Below are positions 5,222 through 13,105 of a stretch of 64,000 nucleotides of DNA, piece after piece (position 1 is the first letter of the stretch; each line of letters starts with the position of its first letter). The position numbers and the translations under genes were made by a program. The notes under the pieces are model-generated. The model was not told the DNA's origin. It searched no databases and saw nothing but the letters and a program-made list of their open reading frames with translations. This DNA is from Thermococcus sp. (GTDB taxonomy: Archaea > Methanobacteriota_B > Thermococci > Thermococcales > Thermococcaceae), in the NCBI RefSeq assembly GCF_027063845.1, contig NZ_JAMOQU010000019.1:97340-161339 (forward strand), given 5' to 3'.

Positions 5222-7078
5222 ATGGACAAGCTTGACCCCAAGATGGAAGGGCTCTTAGACATATTAAAACAGGCTGAAATGGGAAAACTTGTTTTGCCTC
5301 AGTTTCAGAGAGACTTCGTGTGGTCAAGGCAGGATATCGAGGATTTGTTGGTATCTTTGCTTAATGGGTACTTTGTTGGCACATTTCTTTTCCTCAGAAC
5401 AGACCCTACAAAACCTCCATTCAAATGGAGACCAATTCAAGGTGTCCGTCTGCCAGTTGATAGGGAGGGTAACTATATTGCGGAGCCTGAGGCTATGATT
5501 CTTGATGGCCAGCAAAGGATAACGTCACTGCACTATGTTTTTTATGCACCTCCAAAAGATGTTGTCACACCAAAGTACACCACTAGGCGATACCTCTTTT
5601 CTTCTTGAGGCTTGAGGAGTTAGAGAATGGTAATGTTGAAGAAGCCGTGTTTAGCGTAAATGAGGACGATGCCGAGAGACACAAGTACTTTGACAAAGCT
5701 TATCAGTTTGAGAAAAGGATAGTGCCGTTCACGGAGTTATCCAGCAAGGAAAAGTGGAAGGCTTGGAAGGATGGGTTTGTTGATTACCATATTGGAAAAT
5801 ATTCCGATGAATTAAAAGATAGAAATGTTGGATTTGATGAAGGGTGGAAACTAGTCCAGGAGTATAGAAGGTCACTGGAAGAAAAAATTAATGTGTGGGA
5901 GAAGTACATTAACAACCTCTTGGACTTTAAAGTCCCAGTCTTGTACTTGCCAAAAATTGGGCCAGATGACAAACAAAAACTTAGTGAAGTATGCACAATT
6001 TTTGAGAAAATGAACAGTACGGGGGTCCGGTTGTCGGTCTTTGATTTACTAACGGCCAGACTCTACAAGGAGGGTATTGACCTTCATCAGATGTGGCAGG
6101 ATACCCTTGATGTATTTGGTAACATCAAGAAATTATCTGAGGACAATCCAGACCTCTTCAAAGTGTTGCTACTCAGGGCACTGGGGCTTATGAGAGTGCT
6201 CAGGGATAAAGATAAGGGTGAGAAGGAGATTAGCGATGTTAAAAACAGGTCTTTGATTAATCTGTCACCAGTTGGTTTCGAGGAAGATTGGTGGATTATG
6301 GCAAAGTATTTTGACAGAGCCATTGAGAGTTATGAGCACCAATCAAGATGGGTTTGGAGCATTCTTGCCAAAGTGGGTTCCATACAAACCCATACTTCCA
6401 GTATTGGCGACACTTCTTTACTATGTGGAAGGCACTAAGGAGCTATCCCCCACAGAAAAGAGCAGGGCATATACCCTGATAAGACAGTGGTACTGGAGTT
6501 CGGTGTTCACCGAGAGGTATAGCAGTGCGGTTGAATCCAAGTCTCTGAGCGACACATTGGAACTAATAGAAGCCTTCAAGAACTCCGAGTCTGTGCCTTC
6601 AATGGTTGCCGACGCGAGGACCAAGATTACATCCCTAAACTTTTATACTGTCTCTCGGAGTGGGAGTGCAGTTTACAGGGGCATAATGAACTTGATAGCT
6701 CTGAATCATGCGAGGGATTTCCTTCAGGTTGATGCTATTGAGTTCCACAATCTGGAAGACCATCATATATTTCCCCAAGCCTTTCTGAGGAGGCAGGGAT
6801 TTGGAAACAAAGATAAGTCGAAAATTAACACTATACTTAATAGGACGCTTATCACTGATGAGACCAACAGAAAAATCTCAGCGACGTCTCCCAGGGAATA
6901 TCTCAAATGGATTCCAGGAGATGTGGAGGAAGTTTTAAGGCCACACTTCATTGACTCGGAATGCATTGAGGCTATGAAGGAGAACAATTATGAAAGGTTT
7001 TTGAAAAGACGAAATGAGCTTATACTTAACAGAATCAAAGAGCTCATAGGTCAGCCTCAGCCCAAAAACTCAGTTTGA
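5222..7078 (+). pseudogene. GmrSD-like DUF262 plus HNH (DUF1524) restriction protein, broken by two frameshifts
   Basis: Three overlapping frames together spell one protein of about 615 residues. Fragment 1 (to 5608) has the DUF262 motifs LPQFQRDFVWSRQDI and LDGQQRITSL. Fragment 2 (about 5600-6340) continues with IFEKMNSTGVRLSVFDLLTA, also typical of DUF262. Fragment 3 (about 6340-7078) carries the HNH motif HNLEDHHIFPQAFL of DUF1524. Proteins of this layout include GmrSD and relatives, which restrict phage DNA with modified bases. The first break lies in TCTTTTCTTCTTGAG, where one more T would restore YLFFFLRLEELENG. The second lies near 6335-6350 and would be repaired by removing one base or adding two. 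Ribosome site GGTGGA supports ATG 5222. The gene is visibly richer in A+T than its neighbours, which suggests recent transfer. Sequencing error remains possible. Confidence 0.8.
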
Positions 7079-7208: not shown

Positions 7209-7985
7209 CTAAAACCCCCTTCTAATCTCGTTGAAGTAATTCAAGAGAACATCCGCCATTTCCCTGGACTCGATTCTAACGCTGACCTCGTGGTTCCAGT
7301 CGAGAGCGGCTTCGCTCCAGTTGTGGCTCCCAATGTACACGATTCTGCCGTCTATAATGACCATCTTCGTGTGAAGGGTCGTTGACGGCGAATCGAAAAC
7401 TACATCGACGCCGTTGGAGCGCAGGTAGTTGTAAGCGGCCCTGTTGTCATCTATGCTGTTTTCAAGCACAACGTGAACGCTCACACCCCTCCTTCTGGCC
7501 TCAACGAGGGCCCTGATTAGGTCGTTGGCGTGGTCGTAGCTGTCCGCGGGGTCGTACTTCATGAGGAACATTGTTACGTAAATGCTCTTCTTGGCGCTTT
7601 TCAAGTCGTTTATTAGTCGCATGTAGTACTCTCCATCGATTAGCAGTTCTGGTTGGGAGAAGTTTTCTTTTGTCCCTTCTTGACCCTTCGTAATGCACTC
7701 CCTGTATTTCTCGGCAAGTTCGATTAGGTTCTCGCGGGTCTGATTCAGCGTTGCGTTCAGGAGGGACAGCTCTTCTGTGCAGCGGGTAAGGTTTTCTCTC
7801 AGCTCGGCCTCTGCACTTTTGTTTTCTACAATAACCGTCTTCGTAATAGTGATTGTTTTTGTGAAAGTTTCTGTTTTCTCCACTGTCACCGTTTTTGTCT
7901 TATCTCCTGTTTCCTGGCCGAGGCATCCTGCGGTGAGAATGACCGCAATGATTATGAACACCAGCACAGAGTTTTTTGGTCTCAT
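7209..7985 (-). CDS. Phospholipase D-like (HKD) surface lipoprotein
   Basis: A 258-residue protein with an N-terminal signal and lipobox ending LTAGC at Cys21, so it is probably lipid-anchored on the cell surface. A Thr/Val-rich stretch (about 30-50) and a probable coiled coil (55-95) connect to a PLD domain (about 110-258). One HKD motif is present, HTKMVIIDGRIVYIGSHNW, followed by WNHEVSV. A single HKD points to a dimer like the Nuc-type endonucleases. The substrate could be nucleic acid or phospholipid and cannot be told from the sequence. A TATA box at 8006-8016 places the transcript start close to ATG 7985. Confidence 0.8.
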   Translation of the reverse strand: MRPKNSVLVFIIIAVILTAGCLGQETGDKTKTVTVEKTETFTKTITITKTVIVENKSAEAELRENLTRCTEELSLLNATLNQTRENLIELAEKYRECITKGQEGTKENFSQPELLIDGEYYMRLINDLKSAKKSIYVTMFLMKYDPADSYDHANDLIRALVEARRRGVSVHVVLENSIDDNRAAYNYLRSNGVDVVFDSPSTTLHTKMVIIDGRIVYIGSHNWSEAALDWNHEVSVRIESREMADVLLNYFNEIRRGF

Positions 7986-8098: not shown

Positions 8099-8350
8099 AT
8101 GAAGAGACGTATCTGCCGCGAGTACATCGAGGAGATTGAGAGGCTTGAGCGCTCTATCCGCGAGCTTGAGGAGGAGATAATAGAGCTGAGGATGCAGTTG
8201 AAGCTCAAGGTCGACGAGGTCAACAGGCTTGCCATCGAGAACGCGAGCCTAAGGCACAAGCTTGAGATGCAAAAGAAGACTTACCAGCGCATGGTCGAAC
8301 TGCTGAAGAAAATGAAGTTCCCTATAATCCTCCTTCCAGATGATGAGTGA
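8099..8350 (+). CDS. Small coiled-coil protein
   Basis: An 83-residue, highly charged protein. Residues about 8-72 show heptad spacing of Leu/Ile/Met (EEIERLERSIRELEEEIIEL onward), so a long helical coiled coil is expected, with a short hydrophobic tail FPIILLPDDE. No catalytic motif is visible and I do not recognise the family. The base and codon use match the core genome, unlike the restriction gene upstream, which supports a real gene. GGTGAC lies further upstream than usual (about 8069), and the closer GGGGCTGACCGG may serve as ribosome site. Confidence 0.65.
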   Translation: MKRRICREYIEEIERLERSIRELEEEIIELRMQLKLKVDEVNRLAIENASLRHKLEMQKKTYQRMVELLKKMKFPIILLPDDE

Positions 8351-8645: not shown

Positions 8646-8918
8646 ATGAGGCGTTCGAGAGTTGAAATTATTGCTGATATCCTAGAGTCAGCCAACGGTA
8701 AGGGTGCGACAAAGACCCAGATAGTTTACCGAGCGAATCTGAACTTCAAACTGGCCACGAACTACATACGGTACCTCCTCCAAAAGGGGTACCTTATTGA
8801 AGCCATAGAAGGTAACCGGCGGATATACAGGGTCACGGACAAGGGAAGAACGTTTTTACGCAGTTTCTCAACGATTTACCGTGAACTAGGTGATTTTGAT
8901 TCCTTCGATGGCTTTTGA
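8646..8918 (+). CDS. Winged-helix transcriptional regulator
   Basis: A 90-residue one-domain DNA-binding protein. Helices around residues 5-15, 22-31 and 34-45 precede the recognition region LATNYIRYLLQKGYLIEA, and a beta hairpin (NRRIYRVTDKGRTFL) forms the wing, as in archaeal winged-helix regulators of the HTH_45 type. GTTGGGGGTTGGGGC precedes the ATG. It lies 160 bases ahead of the TasA-like operon in the same direction, and a perfect palindrome sits in that gap, so it is a plausible local regulator. The tail after residue 75 is short and shows no ligand-binding domain. Confidence 0.75.
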   Translation: MRRSRVEIIADILESANGKGATKTQIVYRANLNFKLATNYIRYLLQKGYLIEAIEGNRRIYRVTDKGRTFLRSFSTIYRELGDFDSFDGF

Positions 8919-8988
8919 TTTCTTCCAATGTCTCTGAACTTTGGGTCCTTTCGTTTTCTTTTCCGGAACAAAGTTACGGATTTCATGT

Positions 8989-9000
8989 CAGAACGTTCTG
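8989..9000. promoter_or_regulatory. Perfect 12-bp palindrome upstream of the TasA-like operon promoter
   Basis: CAGAACGTTCTG is its own reverse complement. It is centred about 32 bases upstream of the centre of the TATA box at 9022-9030. That position suits an activator site or a distal operator. The winged-helix protein encoded just upstream is a candidate binder, by position only. Confidence 0.45.
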
Positions 9001-9021
9001 TTCTAAACTCATTTTCTTGGA

Positions 9022-9030
9022 GCTTATAAA
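9022..9030 (+). promoter_or_regulatory. TATA box of the TasA-like fibre operon
   Basis: GCTTATAAA is followed about 27 bases later by the probable transcript start near 9053. The leader would contain the strong ribosome site GGAGGTG before ATG 9079. Confidence 0.55.
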
Positions 9031-9078
9031 CCTGAAAAATAACATATAGTACGGGCATGTTGCCCGGAGGTGCATGGA

Positions 9079-9657
9079 ATGAAGAGCGGAATCCTGGCCC
9101 TGTTGGTTGTTGGTGTTGTACTGTTTGGACTTGGAGCAGGAACTTGGGCGTACTTCGACGACACGGAGTCAAGCACTGGGAACTACATAACGGCGGACAT
9201 TCTTAACCTTAAAGTCAGCCATGATAACAGCACTTGGTACGATGGAACTGACGTTCCCTCGAGCATTGATTTTGGGATGGTTTATCCCGGTTGGAGTGGT
9301 AGCGATAACGTTTACGTCATGAACGAGGGTGGACTTCCAGGTGAAGTCTATCTATACCTGAACTACTCCCTCGATGAGAACATCAACCCGGAGTCAGAGA
9401 CCAACGGTGGACAGACCCTTGCGGATGTTATATACGTTAAGATTTACTACAACGATGCCCTCGTTTGGGAAGGCTATCTCAAGGACTGGACTTATGACGA
9501 CCCCGGAAATATGCTTGACCTTGGGCCTCTCAACGGCGGGAAGACCGGAAAGATAACGGTTGAGGCGTCTATTGACTACAACGACGCTGGAAATGACATC
9601 CAGGGTGATAAGCTTATCTTCGATGTCCACCTCTACCTCAAGCAGGTGCAGGAGTGA
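9079..9657 (+). CDS. TasA/camelysin-like secreted protein with SipW-type leader, copy 1
   Basis: A 192-residue secreted protein. The leader ends GAGTWAYFDDTESSTGNYI, which parallels Bacillus TasA (GGGTWAAFND) and the archaeal bundling-pilus subunit class; cleavage after the Ala of TWA is expected. The mature part is about 165 residues, Asp/Asn/Gly/Tyr-rich with almost no Cys, and has alternating beta-strand patterns such as ADILNLKVSHD and GKITVEASIDY, consistent with a jelly-roll subunit. GGAGGTG six bases ahead sets ATG 9079 rather than GTG 9070. It is the first gene after the operon promoter, and a related gene follows after about 30 bases. Role as a fibre subunit is inferred from family resemblance. 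Confidence 0.78.
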   Translation: MKSGILALLVVGVVLFGLGAGTWAYFDDTESSTGNYITADILNLKVSHDNSTWYDGTDVPSSIDFGMVYPGWSGSDNVYVMNEGGLPGEVYLYLNYSLDENINPESETNGGQTLADVIYVKIYYNDALVWEGYLKDWTYDDPGNMLDLGPLNGGKTGKITVEASIDYNDAGNDIQGDKLIFDVHLYLKQVQE

Positions 9658-9690
9658 TTCCCTTTAACCTTTTTACTGGGGTGAGCAGGA

Positions 9691-10449
9691 ATGCGCAGTG
9701 CCCTCTTTGCCTTTTTCCTGGTTGGAATCGTTGTATTGGCCGTGGGTTACGGCACATGGGCATACTTCAGTGACATTGAGGTCAGTGCCGGAGACTATGT
9801 GACTGCTGATACCCTTGACCTCGTGCTCACAGACCACACTAGCGATGCTAACGCTCAGTGGGGCTATTTTTACATAGCCCCTGGCAGGGTACCTGGGGTG
9901 AACGGAGGATATAGTGGGGGTGATAGGGCTATTCATATTTTCAACAACGGTACATACCCCAACACCACAGTCGAGATATGGTTCACATTTGAGTGCTATG
10001 AAGACAACGATGGTAATTACACAAATGGACTTCAGCCGGGCCCTGAATCAGATACTCTGCAGACAAATGAGAGTGCTTATCTAATGTTGAATGAAATAAC
10101 ATTAAACACTATGGAGTATACAGATAGTCAGGCTGTCCGTCTCATTTATGACAAAAAACTCACTAGTTCCGGGTATGATTACCTTGCTCCAGAGCTCAAA
10201 AGCGAGTTCAGTCCTGGACAGGAAATTACCCTTGCGGACTTGGCCAGAATGAAATTCGTGGGATTGCCAGGTCCGGAGCCTCTCTACGGGACGTTAGACA
10301 CTAGCAGTAGTCAGTACCTGGATGAGCCCAACACTCAGCTCTCCTTGGATGGTCCCGAAGGAAAAATGCTAAACTCCAGCCAGAACTACTGGCAGGGCGA
10401 CGTCTGTATAATGACCGTCCACGTGCGGTTAGTGCAGTCGGAGCCGTGA
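9691..10449 (+). CDS. TasA/camelysin-like secreted protein with SipW-type leader, copy 2
   Basis: A 252-residue secreted protein whose leader ends GYGTWAYFSDIEVSAGDYV, the same cleavage context as the preceding gene. The sequence just after it, TADTLDLVLTD, matches the ADILNLKV strand of copy 1 and the GTLDL strand of TasA. It is about 60 residues longer, with an Asn/Ser-rich central region containing several N-x-S/T sites. GGGGTGAGCAGGA precedes the ATG. Two subunits of different size could be a major and a minor (cap or anchor) component of one fibre; which is which cannot be read from the sequence. Confidence 0.77.
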   Translation: MRSALFAFFLVGIVVLAVGYGTWAYFSDIEVSAGDYVTADTLDLVLTDHTSDANAQWGYFYIAPGRVPGVNGGYSGGDRAIHIFNNGTYPNTTVEIWFTFECYEDNDGNYTNGLQPGPESDTLQTNESAYLMLNEITLNTMEYTDSQAVRLIYDKKLTSSGYDYLAPELKSEFSPGQEITLADLARMKFVGLPGPEPLYGTLDTSSSQYLDEPNTQLSLDGPEGKMLNSSQNYWQGDVCIMTVHVRLVQSEP

Positions 10450-10454
10450 GCCCC

Positions 10455-10706
10455 ATGCGGGTTCTCTACGCCATCTTTTTCTTTGTTGCAGTTACGTTCA
10501 CACTATACCTCCTCACCATGTATGAGGTAGGCAACATTGAACCTCAGGCTTCAAGTGTCTTTGATAACGTGACCCAGAACGTCAGTGCCACTCCAGCCGA
10601 GATGACAATGGCCCTTGGAACGATTTCGTTCCTTGCGAGGGTTGGCCTCGCCGTGGTGTTCCTGACAATGGCAGTTTACGTAATCTCCGAGCTGGTGATG
10701 AAATGA
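10455..10706 (+). CDS. Small membrane protein of the TasA-like operon
   Basis: An 83-residue protein with two hydrophobic helices, at about 3-22 and 57-80, joined by a polar loop of about 35 residues containing N-x-T/S sites (DNVTQNVSAT). The first helix brings the loop outside, so the loop may contact the secreted subunits. I do not recognise a family. The frame opens at GTG 10446 or ATG 10455; ATG is preferred because GTGAG lies at better spacing. It overlaps the following gene at ATGATGAG, pointing to coupled translation. Confidence 0.65.
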   Translation: MRVLYAIFFFVAVTFTLYLLTMYEVGNIEPQASSVFDNVTQNVSATPAEMTMALGTISFLARVGLAVVFLTMAVYVISELVMK

Positions 10707-11191
10707 TGAGGGCTCTCTTGGCATGGCTCGTGGTCGTTTCAATTTTTGTCTACTCGTACTTCGGCTCGTTTGCTTACTTCTCGGATTCTGCTTCAATAAG
10801 GCTGTCGCTTCAAATGGAGCAGACTTCGGTTCAAATCAGCTGTGAAAACCTTACTCTCATTCACTGTCACTGCTCCTGCCCCTGCTTCTGCGGCTACTAC
10901 ATCCTCAGGGGCATTATTGTTAACACCACCGGCAACTCCACGCTTGATGGAATCTATTTCAATAGCAGGGGATGGGTTTTAGGCGGTGTGATTGTTGACA
11001 ATTCAAGCTTTAGGGTTAGAACTGGCCAGTACATATCCATAAACGCTACTCTATCCCCCGGGGTTCACAACGTTTCCCTAATCTTCTACAGGACGAATCC
11101 CTGCAGAAATGGACATACCATGTACTTGGTGTTCTACATTAATGGTGGAGAGTACCCTCTGTCAATCGTTCCAAGGTGGTGTCGGCGATGA
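10703..11191 (+). CDS. Secreted SipW-leader protein with a Cys-rich segment
   Basis: A 162-residue protein with an N-terminal helix ending YFGSFAYFSDSASIRLSL, a diverged version of the TasA-type leader. The mature part carries an unusual alternating cysteine run, HCHCSCPCFCG, with another Cys shortly before it, and later Cys residues near the C-terminus (NPCRNG and WCRR). Several N-x-T/S glycosylation sites are present. The Cys pattern could bind metal or form a disulphide knot; thermophilic secreted proteins often use disulphides. Start ATG 10703 overlaps the upstream stop, and its own end overlaps the signal peptidase start, so it is embedded in the operon. Confidence 0.7.
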   Translation: MMRALLAWLVVVSIFVYSYFGSFAYFSDSASIRLSLQMEQTSVQISCENLTLIHCHCSCPCFCGYYILRGIIVNTTGNSTLDGIYFNSRGWVLGGVIVDNSSFRVRTGQYISINATLSPGVHNVSLIFYRTNPCRNGHTMYLVFYINGGEYPLSIVPRWCRR

Positions 11192-12102
11192 GAAGGCTTC
11201 TCTCATTCGCGGTCATCCTCGTGCTCCTGCTGACCTTTCCAAGGCTCAGGACGCTGACCCCGCTCGTTGTTCTAAGCGGAAGCATGGAGCCTTACTTCAA
11301 TCCCGGTGATATGGTCTTAATAGAGCCGGTGAACGCCTCCGGTGTTCAAATCGGGGACGTGGTGGCCTTCCATCCGGCGTGGGCTAAGGGAGAAGAGGCG
11401 CGCAATACACTGTACACCCATAGGGTCGTTGGCATAATCAGGAACGCAACCGGTTTATACTTCGTCACCAAGGGGGACAACAACGAGGAAAATGACCCCG
11501 CGCCGGTTCCCGCCCAGAACGTCGTCGGGAAGGTCACCATCGTCCTTCCCTATCTTGGCTACCTGACGAGGCACAATCCGGATAGAAGGGTGCTCCTGGC
11601 TGTTTACGTGCTGTTCATTTTGCTCCCAGGAATTTACATACTCGTGTCCACGCTTCGAGGGCTCTCTGAGCGTCCAGTAGTAGCACGGAGGGAAGAACGC
11701 CTCCAGATAATTAGCTCAAGGTATTCCCGTCTTGTTTTCCCCAAGAAGGCTCTCTCCATATTCATCGGTTTTCTGCTGTTTTTCACTGTCTCACTAACTC
11801 CCCGGCTTGATTCGGCCGAAGATGGGTTTACCAACGGCGGAAAACTGCCGGTGCTCCTAATCTCAGAGGGAGTTCCTGGATACGTTTACCTCGACCCTGG
11901 CGACTCCTGCGCCTGCAACTACACATCCGCAGTGAACGCCGTTCTCCCGGTTCAGTGGCTTGTCTTTCTCTCCTGGATGCCCCTTTTTCCCCGGTCGCTC
12001 GCTCTTCTCCTAGCTCTGCTCTCAACTCTCATGCTGTATCCTCTCTGGACGTCCAGGTTCCCGAACGTGGAGGTGAAAAGGCATGGACCCCGCTTTATTT
12101 GA
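11188..12102 (+). CDS. SipW-like signal peptidase I with multi-pass C-terminal extension
   Basis: A 304-residue membrane protease of the archaeal/ER (S26B) type. The catalytic Ser32 lies in VLSGSMEPYFNPGD, the general base is His78 in LYTHRVVG (His rather than the bacterial Lys), and Asp97 is in TKGDNNEEND. A membrane helix follows at about 135-155. The last 130 residues add further hydrophobic helices and an outside segment with GDSCACNY, which is longer than usual for SipW. GGTGGTG sets ATG 11188, overlapping the upstream stop. In the operon it should cleave the TasA-like precursors. Confidence 0.87.
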   Translation: MRRLLSFAVILVLLLTFPRLRTLTPLVVLSGSMEPYFNPGDMVLIEPVNASGVQIGDVVAFHPAWAKGEEARNTLYTHRVVGIIRNATGLYFVTKGDNNEENDPAPVPAQNVVGKVTIVLPYLGYLTRHNPDRRVLLAVYVLFILLPGIYILVSTLRGLSERPVVARREERLQIISSRYSRLVFPKKALSIFIGFLLFFTVSLTPRLDSAEDGFTNGGKLPVLLISEGVPGYVYLDPGDSCACNYTSAVNAVLPVQWLVFLSWMPLFPRSLALLLALLSTLMLYPLWTSRFPNVEVKRHGPRFI

Positions 12103-13105
12103 AGTCCTCCTTAAAATTAGGCGGAACTGGCTGGCCGTTTTCCTGCTTTCCCTGCTACTCTCCGGGGCGCTGGCGTACGCCTACACGGTGACCCCTGACG
12201 TCGTGCGCGAAACCTCAAAGGTCTCCAAGCCCCTCTACCGCTGGGGCAGTGTCCTCAACGCTTCCGCCGTCGTTGCAAAGGAGAACCCCATCTGGTCTTT
12301 GGGGGAGAGGGTTAGCCTTCCAATCTACCCCCTTGACGTCACCCCCGTGCTTGAGCCGACGCTAACATGGAAAATCTACGCCAAATCCGCCGACGTCAAC
12401 GTCACCGCCCACATGAATGTTCTCTATTACGTCTCTTACAACGGCGAAAGGCTGTTTGAGAAAGTGTACAACGCATCTTCGGCATCGGGACATAACGGAG
12501 TTGTTCTTTCAATCCCAGTCAACGTCTCCGATGTCGTTTCAAGGATTGAGGCCGATGTGGCCTTCCTGAAGTTGCCCCGCTTTGAGAGCGGTATCGAGGT
12601 GAAAGGGGACTTCTCCTACTCGGGAACCGTCGAGGGAAAGCCCGTTTCGGGAAGCGGTTTCCTGAACGGAAACGTTAAAGTGTCCTACGGCTCGGTTTAT
12701 ACCTTTACCGGTGACGCCGTCAACGGCACGGGCACGTACACTGAAACTGTAACCTTCACGAGGCCGGTCAACCGCGTAAAGCGCACACTGCTTCTCGGAG
12801 GCTCTGTCCTGGCTATCGTCCTGGCCATTGTAGCGCTTGTGTTGAGGTTCCGCTTCAATCCATCTCCTGAGGAGGTGGAAAGGGCTGGGGCCATGGCGGA
12901 GCTCAGGCGGTACGGCAAGTGGATAAGCACGGGAAAGCTTCCGGAGAGCTACGTCCACTCACCGCCCAAGGTGGAGTTCCCGAGCCTCGGAGACCTCGTT
13001 GAAACGGCCATTGACCACGGAAAGAGGGTAATCCACGACCCGGAAAGGGGACTTTACTTCTTCGTTGACGGGGGAGTTCTCTACGTCTTCTCTCCGAAAT
13101 CCTAA
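12083..13105 (+). CDS. DUF5305-like membrane protein
   Basis: A 340-residue protein with an N-terminal helix (about 17-38) and a second helix near 232-255. About 190 outside residues of beta-rich sequence lie between them, and a cytoplasmic tail of about 85 residues follows. The outside part contains [19 protein letters not shown] and several N-x-S/T sites. The layout fits DUF5305, a family that I recall near archaeal SipW genes; the assignment is from memory and moderate. The ATG overlaps the signal peptidase gene by 20 bases. Its topology would suit an anchor or assembly factor for the secreted subunits, comparable in role to TapA, but this is inference. Confidence 0.65.

Follow-up and report, generated by a model that had tools for sequence, protein, structure and literature searches.

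A seven-gene Thermococcus cassette as a probable archaeal variant of the TasA/SipW fibre system

Introduction

The closest described relatives of the locus analyzed here are the TasA and camelysin systems of Bacillus and the bundling pili of archaea. In TasA of the Bacillus subtilis tapA-sipW-tasA locus, the donor strand comprises residues 28-38 (PMC9674648), and the sipW-calY1-bc_1280-calY2 locus of Bacillus cereus combines two camelysins with one SipW (PMC10151520). Archaeal TasA homologues are already known, and Pyrobaculum and Pyrodictium have TasA-like bundling pili (PMC10151520, PMC11952670, PMC9905601): AbpA (Pyrobaculum calidifontis) and AbpX (Pyrodictium) form TasA-related donor-strand fibres of hyperthermophilic archaea (PMC11952670). 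Part of the gene neighbourhood considered below may have been reported with AbpA in 2022. How archaea build surface fibres other than type IV pili is poorly known, and the cassette described here is a compact Thermococcus candidate that is open to genetic work.

We analyzed a 64,000-nucleotide stretch of a Thermococcus sp. genome (the window), in which seven genes on the plus strand precede alaS. Like the B. subtilis locus, this cassette combines the TasA fold and leader, a SipW-class peptidase and an N-terminal strand placed for donor-strand exchange. It differs in that no TapA homologue scored above threshold in the Thermococcus cassette, that its long-extension SipW, DUF5305 protein, SecC and two-helix protein had no counterpart found in B. 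subtilis, and that its regulator is a winged-helix protein rather than SinR. Two subunits with one SipW are also the arrangement in B. cereus, whereas DUF5305, a long SipW and SecC are not reported there (PMC10151520). With the archaeal bundling pili it shares its relationship to TasA, while bundling itself is a conjecture for the cassette. The Sulfolobus thread (Saci_0406) is likewise a donor-strand filament, but it is not SipW-linked as described (PMC9715654).

Results

Computation established the gene set and how it is conserved, the type of leader, the catalytic residues, the fold of the subunit and the coupling of SecC with SipW-L and DUF5305. All seven genes (8646-13105) were found at the positions given in a preliminary description of the window, in the order winged-helix gene, SecA1, SecB2, TM2, SecC, SipW-L and DUF5305, followed by alaS (Table 1). 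The last four junctions of the cassette are overlapping or nearly so, with overlaps of 4 nt (TM2/SecC), 4 nt (SecC/SipW-L) and 20 nt (SipW-L/DUF5305). Of the overlapping start and stop codons originally proposed for most of the genes, those from TM2 to DUF5305 were recovered, and SecA1 and SecB2 lie 33 nt apart. Because the 160-nt gap between the regulator gene and SecA1 contains a separate promoter, co-transcription of these two is only a possibility. The three secreted proteins had also been described as consecutive and alike in their leaders; the leaders are indeed alike in all three, but TM2 sits between SecB2 and SecC.

Table 1. Features of the cassette and of the region upstream of SecA1 (window positions)
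Feature	Position	Strand	Evidence or remark
Winged-helix regulator (HTH_45/Sso10a family)	8646..8918	+	PF14947, E 6.8e-23; NF053610, 86.5 bits (cut-off 60)
Operator-like near-palindrome TCCGGAAC-AAA-GTTACGGA	8962..8980	.	upstream of SecA1
TATA box TTATAAA, SecA1 promoter	9024..9030	+	sequence; TATA-like elements between -54 and -75 in 10/10 cassettes
GC-rich hairpin CGGGCA-TGT-TGCCCG	9052..9066	+	predicted 5' end of SecA1 mRNA; best stem of the upstream 50 nt
SecA1, TasA-like protein, presumably the major fibre subunit	9079..9657	+	predicted cleavage after Ala24; mature part 9151-9654
SecB2, second TasA-like subunit	9691..10449	+	predicted mature part from 9763; Cys102 and Cys239 invariant in the ortholog alignment
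TM2, small two-membrane-helix protein	10455..10706	+	alignment of ten syntenic orthologues; alternative GTG start at 10446
SecC, Cys-rich secreted protein with SipW-type leader	10703..11191	+	mature part from about 10775; ortholog alignment
SipW-L, ER-type signal peptidase with C-terminal extension	11188..12102	+	NCBIfam archaeal SPase I and SipW; SEC11C match
DUF5305 protein	12083..13105	+	PF17231, E 9e-31

The leaders of SecA1 and SecB2, with cleavage sites GAGTWA/YFDD and GYGTWA/YFSD, both passed the NCBIfam model of the SipW-dependent leader (TIGR04088; 29.4 and 24.5 bits, cut-off 19). The Camelysin family (PF12389) was matched by all ten SecA1 orthologues (best 5e-12) and by seven of the ten SecB2 orthologues, the window SecA1 scoring just below the cut-off (21.5 against 22.5 bits). 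Since SecA1 failed the TasA equivalog NF046066 (16.1 bits, cut-off 450), it is not TasA itself. The TAD-LDL strand noted earlier in two of the three secreted proteins was recovered as ITADILNL in SecA1 and VTADTLDL in SecB2, and was absent from SecC. A comparison by hhalign (99.7%, E 1.8e-26, a score to which the leader contributes part) indicated that SecA1 and SecB2 are homologous along their whole length, SecA1 being the shorter and free of extra insertions.

Next to these family models, a SecA1 profile searched against the PDB matched TasA (8aur, 5of1) at 1e-4 and AbpX at 0.01; after addition of archaeal and bacterial relatives, the E-values were about 1e-9 and 4e-5, respectively. The AlphaFold model of mature SecA1 (pLDDT 85, pTM 0.79) is almost all-beta with a poorly ordered N-terminal strand. 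A structure prediction against TasA had been suggested as a check, and the fold search of the PDB with this model returned the TasA fibre first (E 4e-5, prob 1.00), thereby recovering the TasA beta-sandwich, with a TMq of only 0.59 for what is a predicted, single-chain model. Within the next nine matches were CFA/I pilins, the Sulfolobus thread (7pnb, E 1.4e-3, without a sequence match to SecA1) and CS17 pili, all donor-strand filaments. Because the model matches the TasA fibre and then other donor-strand pili, a donor-strand-exchange fibre is well supported at the level of the predicted fold. In addition, SecA1 YFDDTESS aligns with the donor strand of TasA, which we take to read AFNDIKSK. The TasA-type reading of the locus was thus upheld by both profile and fold. 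The proposed link to AbpA was not: the profiles reached AbpX of Pyrodictium but not Pyrobaculum AbpA, which was also absent among the 50 best fold matches listed. The SecB2 profile matched no relative of solved structure.

SipW-L had been assigned to the Ser-His-Asp peptidases of the SipW class. In agreement with this, it matched the peptidase S26 profile, and Ser32, His78, Asp97 and Asp103 were invariant in 12 archaeal homologues, including canonical and long forms. It scored 107 bits with the NCBIfam archaeal SPase I model, over the cut-off, and 83.6 bits with the SipW equivalog, under the cut-off of 190, and it matched SEC11C (E 6e-15). Its C-terminal extension consists of further membrane helices and an outside (beta) segment. 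The DUF5305 protein is predicted to have a membrane helix, a beta-rich outside domain, another membrane helix and a small inside domain, the model being of low confidence (pLDDT 62, pTM 0.36) with no reliable fold. As claimed beforehand, DUF5305 is missing from Bacillus-type loci: none of the bacterial TasA/SipW loci examined had it at E 1e-3. Matches were found in 0 of 14 control genomes, 78 of 94 Thermococcaceae genomes and 67 of 246 Halobacteriota genomes. Neither DUF5305 nor DUF1102 was mentioned in the literature searched.

The SecC leader (GSFA/YFSD) is of the same type, and six of ten SecC orthologues matched TIGR04088. The TapA model TIGR04087 was matched weakly by two of the ten (best E 0.025) and not by the window SecC, and the SecC profile matched no relative of solved structure. 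An assembly role had been suggested for the two-helix protein; this gained no support. In Methanosarcina its slot is taken by a canonical SipW, in other Halobacteriota by a third TasA-like gene. The idea that TM2 is a canonical SipW minus its catalytic domain was dropped as a claim, its position being the sole basis.

When SecA1 was searched across 94 Thermococcaceae genomes, nine besides that of the window contained close matches. The neighbourhood check called for in the preliminary description accordingly gave a clear outcome: all nine carry the intact cassette in identical seven-gene order, directly ahead of alaS and in the same direction, and the winged-helix gene comes first in 10/10. 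Because this order is kept while SecA1 is 35-95% identical, the cassette is not a chance assembly. AlaRS is 89-99% identical among these genomes, whereas the cassette proteins fall to 20-60% between clades; therefore, the cassette evolves fast. With an intact set in only 10 of the 94 genomes, it is also dispensable. In an eleventh genome (L098), an apparent insertion sequence lies between SecC and SipW-L and the genes before SecC are gone, and two more loci (L107 and L108) have apparent cassette fragments beside alaS. We read this as an old locus that was lost repeatedly. The reading as a chromosomal island was set aside in view of the position before alaS in ten genomes, the two apparent remnants and the apparent disruption in L098.

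Several observations concern the flanking DNA. A small, conserved coiled-coil ORF (8099-8350) upstream of the cassette also occurs beside alaS in L107, which has only a remnant. By eye, two overlapping same-strand ORFs at 5605-7078 (277 and 268 aa) resemble one frameshifted DUF262/HNH-type (GmrSD-like) protein, and L041 has a restriction-like gene set at a comparable position.

Upstream of SecA1, the pattern KAACWWHGTTHC was found at -113 to -134 from the start codon in all ten cassettes, with flanks that are no longer alike between clades; in the window, it belongs to the near-palindrome of Table 1. With a trailing G, it occurs at five sites genome-wide, two of which are both strands of the window site; these statistics are not independent, since the pattern was defined post hoc from the same sequences. 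Another copy of this operator-like pattern, possibly there by chance, lies at 7566 within a minus-strand gene (7209-7985) for a phospholipase-D-like lipoprotein with the lipobox LTAGC. Ahead of the ribosome-binding site, all ten cassettes have a GC-rich stem, which differs in sequence among them. A stem-specific test on six clade representatives gave a combined p of 3e-7, against 0.99 for the SecB2 control, and was non-significant in the single genomes L037 (0.053) and L040 (0.175); the folding energy of the whole hairpin was non-significant in most genomes. Such a hairpin fits a protected, abundant subunit mRNA. These regulatory signals go beyond the preliminary description, as do the mosaic subunits and the DUF1102 sister cassette described below.

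Comparison between genomes then indicated different histories within the cassette. Between L037 and L038, identity is 87% for SipW-L and 79% for DUF5305, but drops to 38% for mature SecA1. Conversely, SecA1 of L037 is 73-78% identical to those of L210 and L211, from Halobacteriota genomes of about 2 Mb, the pair with L211 reaching 78% in SecA1 and 28% in SipW. In the SecA1 tree, L037 groups with these two Halobacteriota proteins (98/99), whereas L035-L038 stay together for SipW-L (100/99), as do L037 and L038 for DUF5305 (100/99). Because SecA1 conflicts in this way with SipW-L and DUF5305, the subunit genes are mosaic, and we infer that they were replaced by gene transfer, even between distant lineages. 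Over only 12 related genomes, identity matrices correlated at 0.90-0.95 among SecC, SipW-L and DUF5305 (SecC-SipW-L, 0.93), compared with 0.38 for SecA1-SipW-L (0.56 within Thermococcaceae). When one genome at a time was left out, the gap between the correlations of SecC and SecA1 with the machinery stayed at least 0.18. Therefore, SecC behaves as a part of the machinery, with which it evolves, and not with the subunits. SecA1 and SecB2 identities rise together across genomes (r 0.77).

A search of genome contigs with the single SecA1 sequence gave no match. The profile built from SecA1 did detect TasA-like genes that adjoin SipW, in Methanosarcina, ANME-1, haloarchaea and numerous bacteria, including Patescibacteria. 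In four such loci (L112, L114, L115 and L133), all archaeal, DUF5305 and a long SipW adjoin the TasA-like genes. Related cassettes that include SipW-L and DUF5305 were seen in Methanosarcina, ANME-1 and further Halobacteriota, and Methanosarcina and ANME-1 have canonical SipW and the long form together in one cassette. At 19 of 20 DUF5305 loci, hand-picked and thus non-random, from the Halobacteriota search, a SipW gene was present within a 13-kb stretch, and TasA-like or DUF1102 genes at most of them. In these genomes, the best matches to full-length SipW-L adjoin DUF5305, apart from one about 5 kb and one about 8 kb away. The regulator family of the window also opens the cassettes of ANME-1 and several Halobacteriota.

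The same Thermococcus genome carries a second cassette (L100:7178-11932) with a DUF7344 regulator, two DUF1102 proteins, a SipW-like peptidase, a secreted protein and DUF5305. Judged from the loci read and from weaker DUF5305 matches, this type is apparently present in most Thermococcaceae, and SipW-L and DUF5305 would thus also serve a second kind of cassette built on DUF1102 proteins. Because a DUF7344 gene precedes the TasA-type cassette of Methanosarcina, regulators and machinery are common to both kinds.

Discussion

We regard the cassette as a genuine archaeal version of the TasA/SipW system. Its product is quite probably an extracellular fibre of the TasA/camelysin type, joined by donor-strand exchange and made by the following mechanism, in which polymerization, SipW-L cleavage and the parts played by DUF5305, SecC, TM2, SecB2 and the regulator are inferred. 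Transcription is probably controlled by the winged-helix protein through binding to the palindrome ahead of SecA1, and the hairpin at its 5' end would protect the subunit mRNA. SecA1 and SecB2 would be exported via Sec; SipW-L would then cut behind the TWA alanine and so release the N-terminal strand YFxDTESS for insertion into the next subunit. SecA1 would be the main and SecB2 a second or minor subunit. SecC, SipW-L and DUF5305 may form a membrane-side processing and assembly unit, with SecC as the likely starter or base and DUF5305 as the membrane platform.

Other arrangements of these parts were weighed. That a housekeeping signal peptidase cuts the leader of a genuine fibre, while SipW-L and DUF5305 have a different function, for example in anchoring or releasing it, is somewhat unlikely: Methanosarcina and ANME-1 do combine both SipW forms, and DUF5305 and SipW-L serve DUF1102 proteins too, but the catalytic residues are complete in the long form, and the Thermococcus cassette contains no other SipW. 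It is also unlikely that SecB2 is the main subunit or that there are two separate fibres. The two proteins are homologous throughout, co-vary in identity and were both swapped; against this, SecA1 comes first, with its own promoter and hairpin leader, and is the smaller protein lacking insertions.

A more basic alternative, which we consider very unlikely, is that the secreted proteins do not polymerize and are soluble or S-layer-bound camelysin-like proteins released by SipW-L. The Pfam entry is still named Camelysin metallo-endopeptidase, after that enzyme, and many Thermococcaceae have a related protein of about 200 aa that stands alone, with no SipW next to it (L044-L064, e.g. L046:6827-7432). 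Nevertheless, the top structural matches of SecA1 are donor-strand filaments, and tandem subunits with a dedicated SipW recur across archaea and bacteria.

With the donor-strand fibre as the preferred reading, DUF5305 and the long SipW can be named as candidate assembly factors that are individually deletable. More tentatively, SipW-L, DUF5305 and SecC may represent an archaeal export and assembly machine, hitherto not recognized as one, that handles at least two subunit families (TasA-like and DUF1102) and accepts the outright exchange of its subunits by gene transfer across phyla, possibly an archaeal counterpart of the chaperone-usher pathway for SipW-dependent fibres. Subunit swapping is expected for surface structures under diversifying selection, and the DUF1102 proteins are suggested to be a second class of surface proteins or fibres processed by SipW. 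A further cassette type was seen at L043:4855-8578, with a winged-helix gene, a TasA-like protein, a SipW-like peptidase and, where DUF5305 would stand, a further protein, and L042 has an orphan relative of its subunit in a similar neighbourhood.
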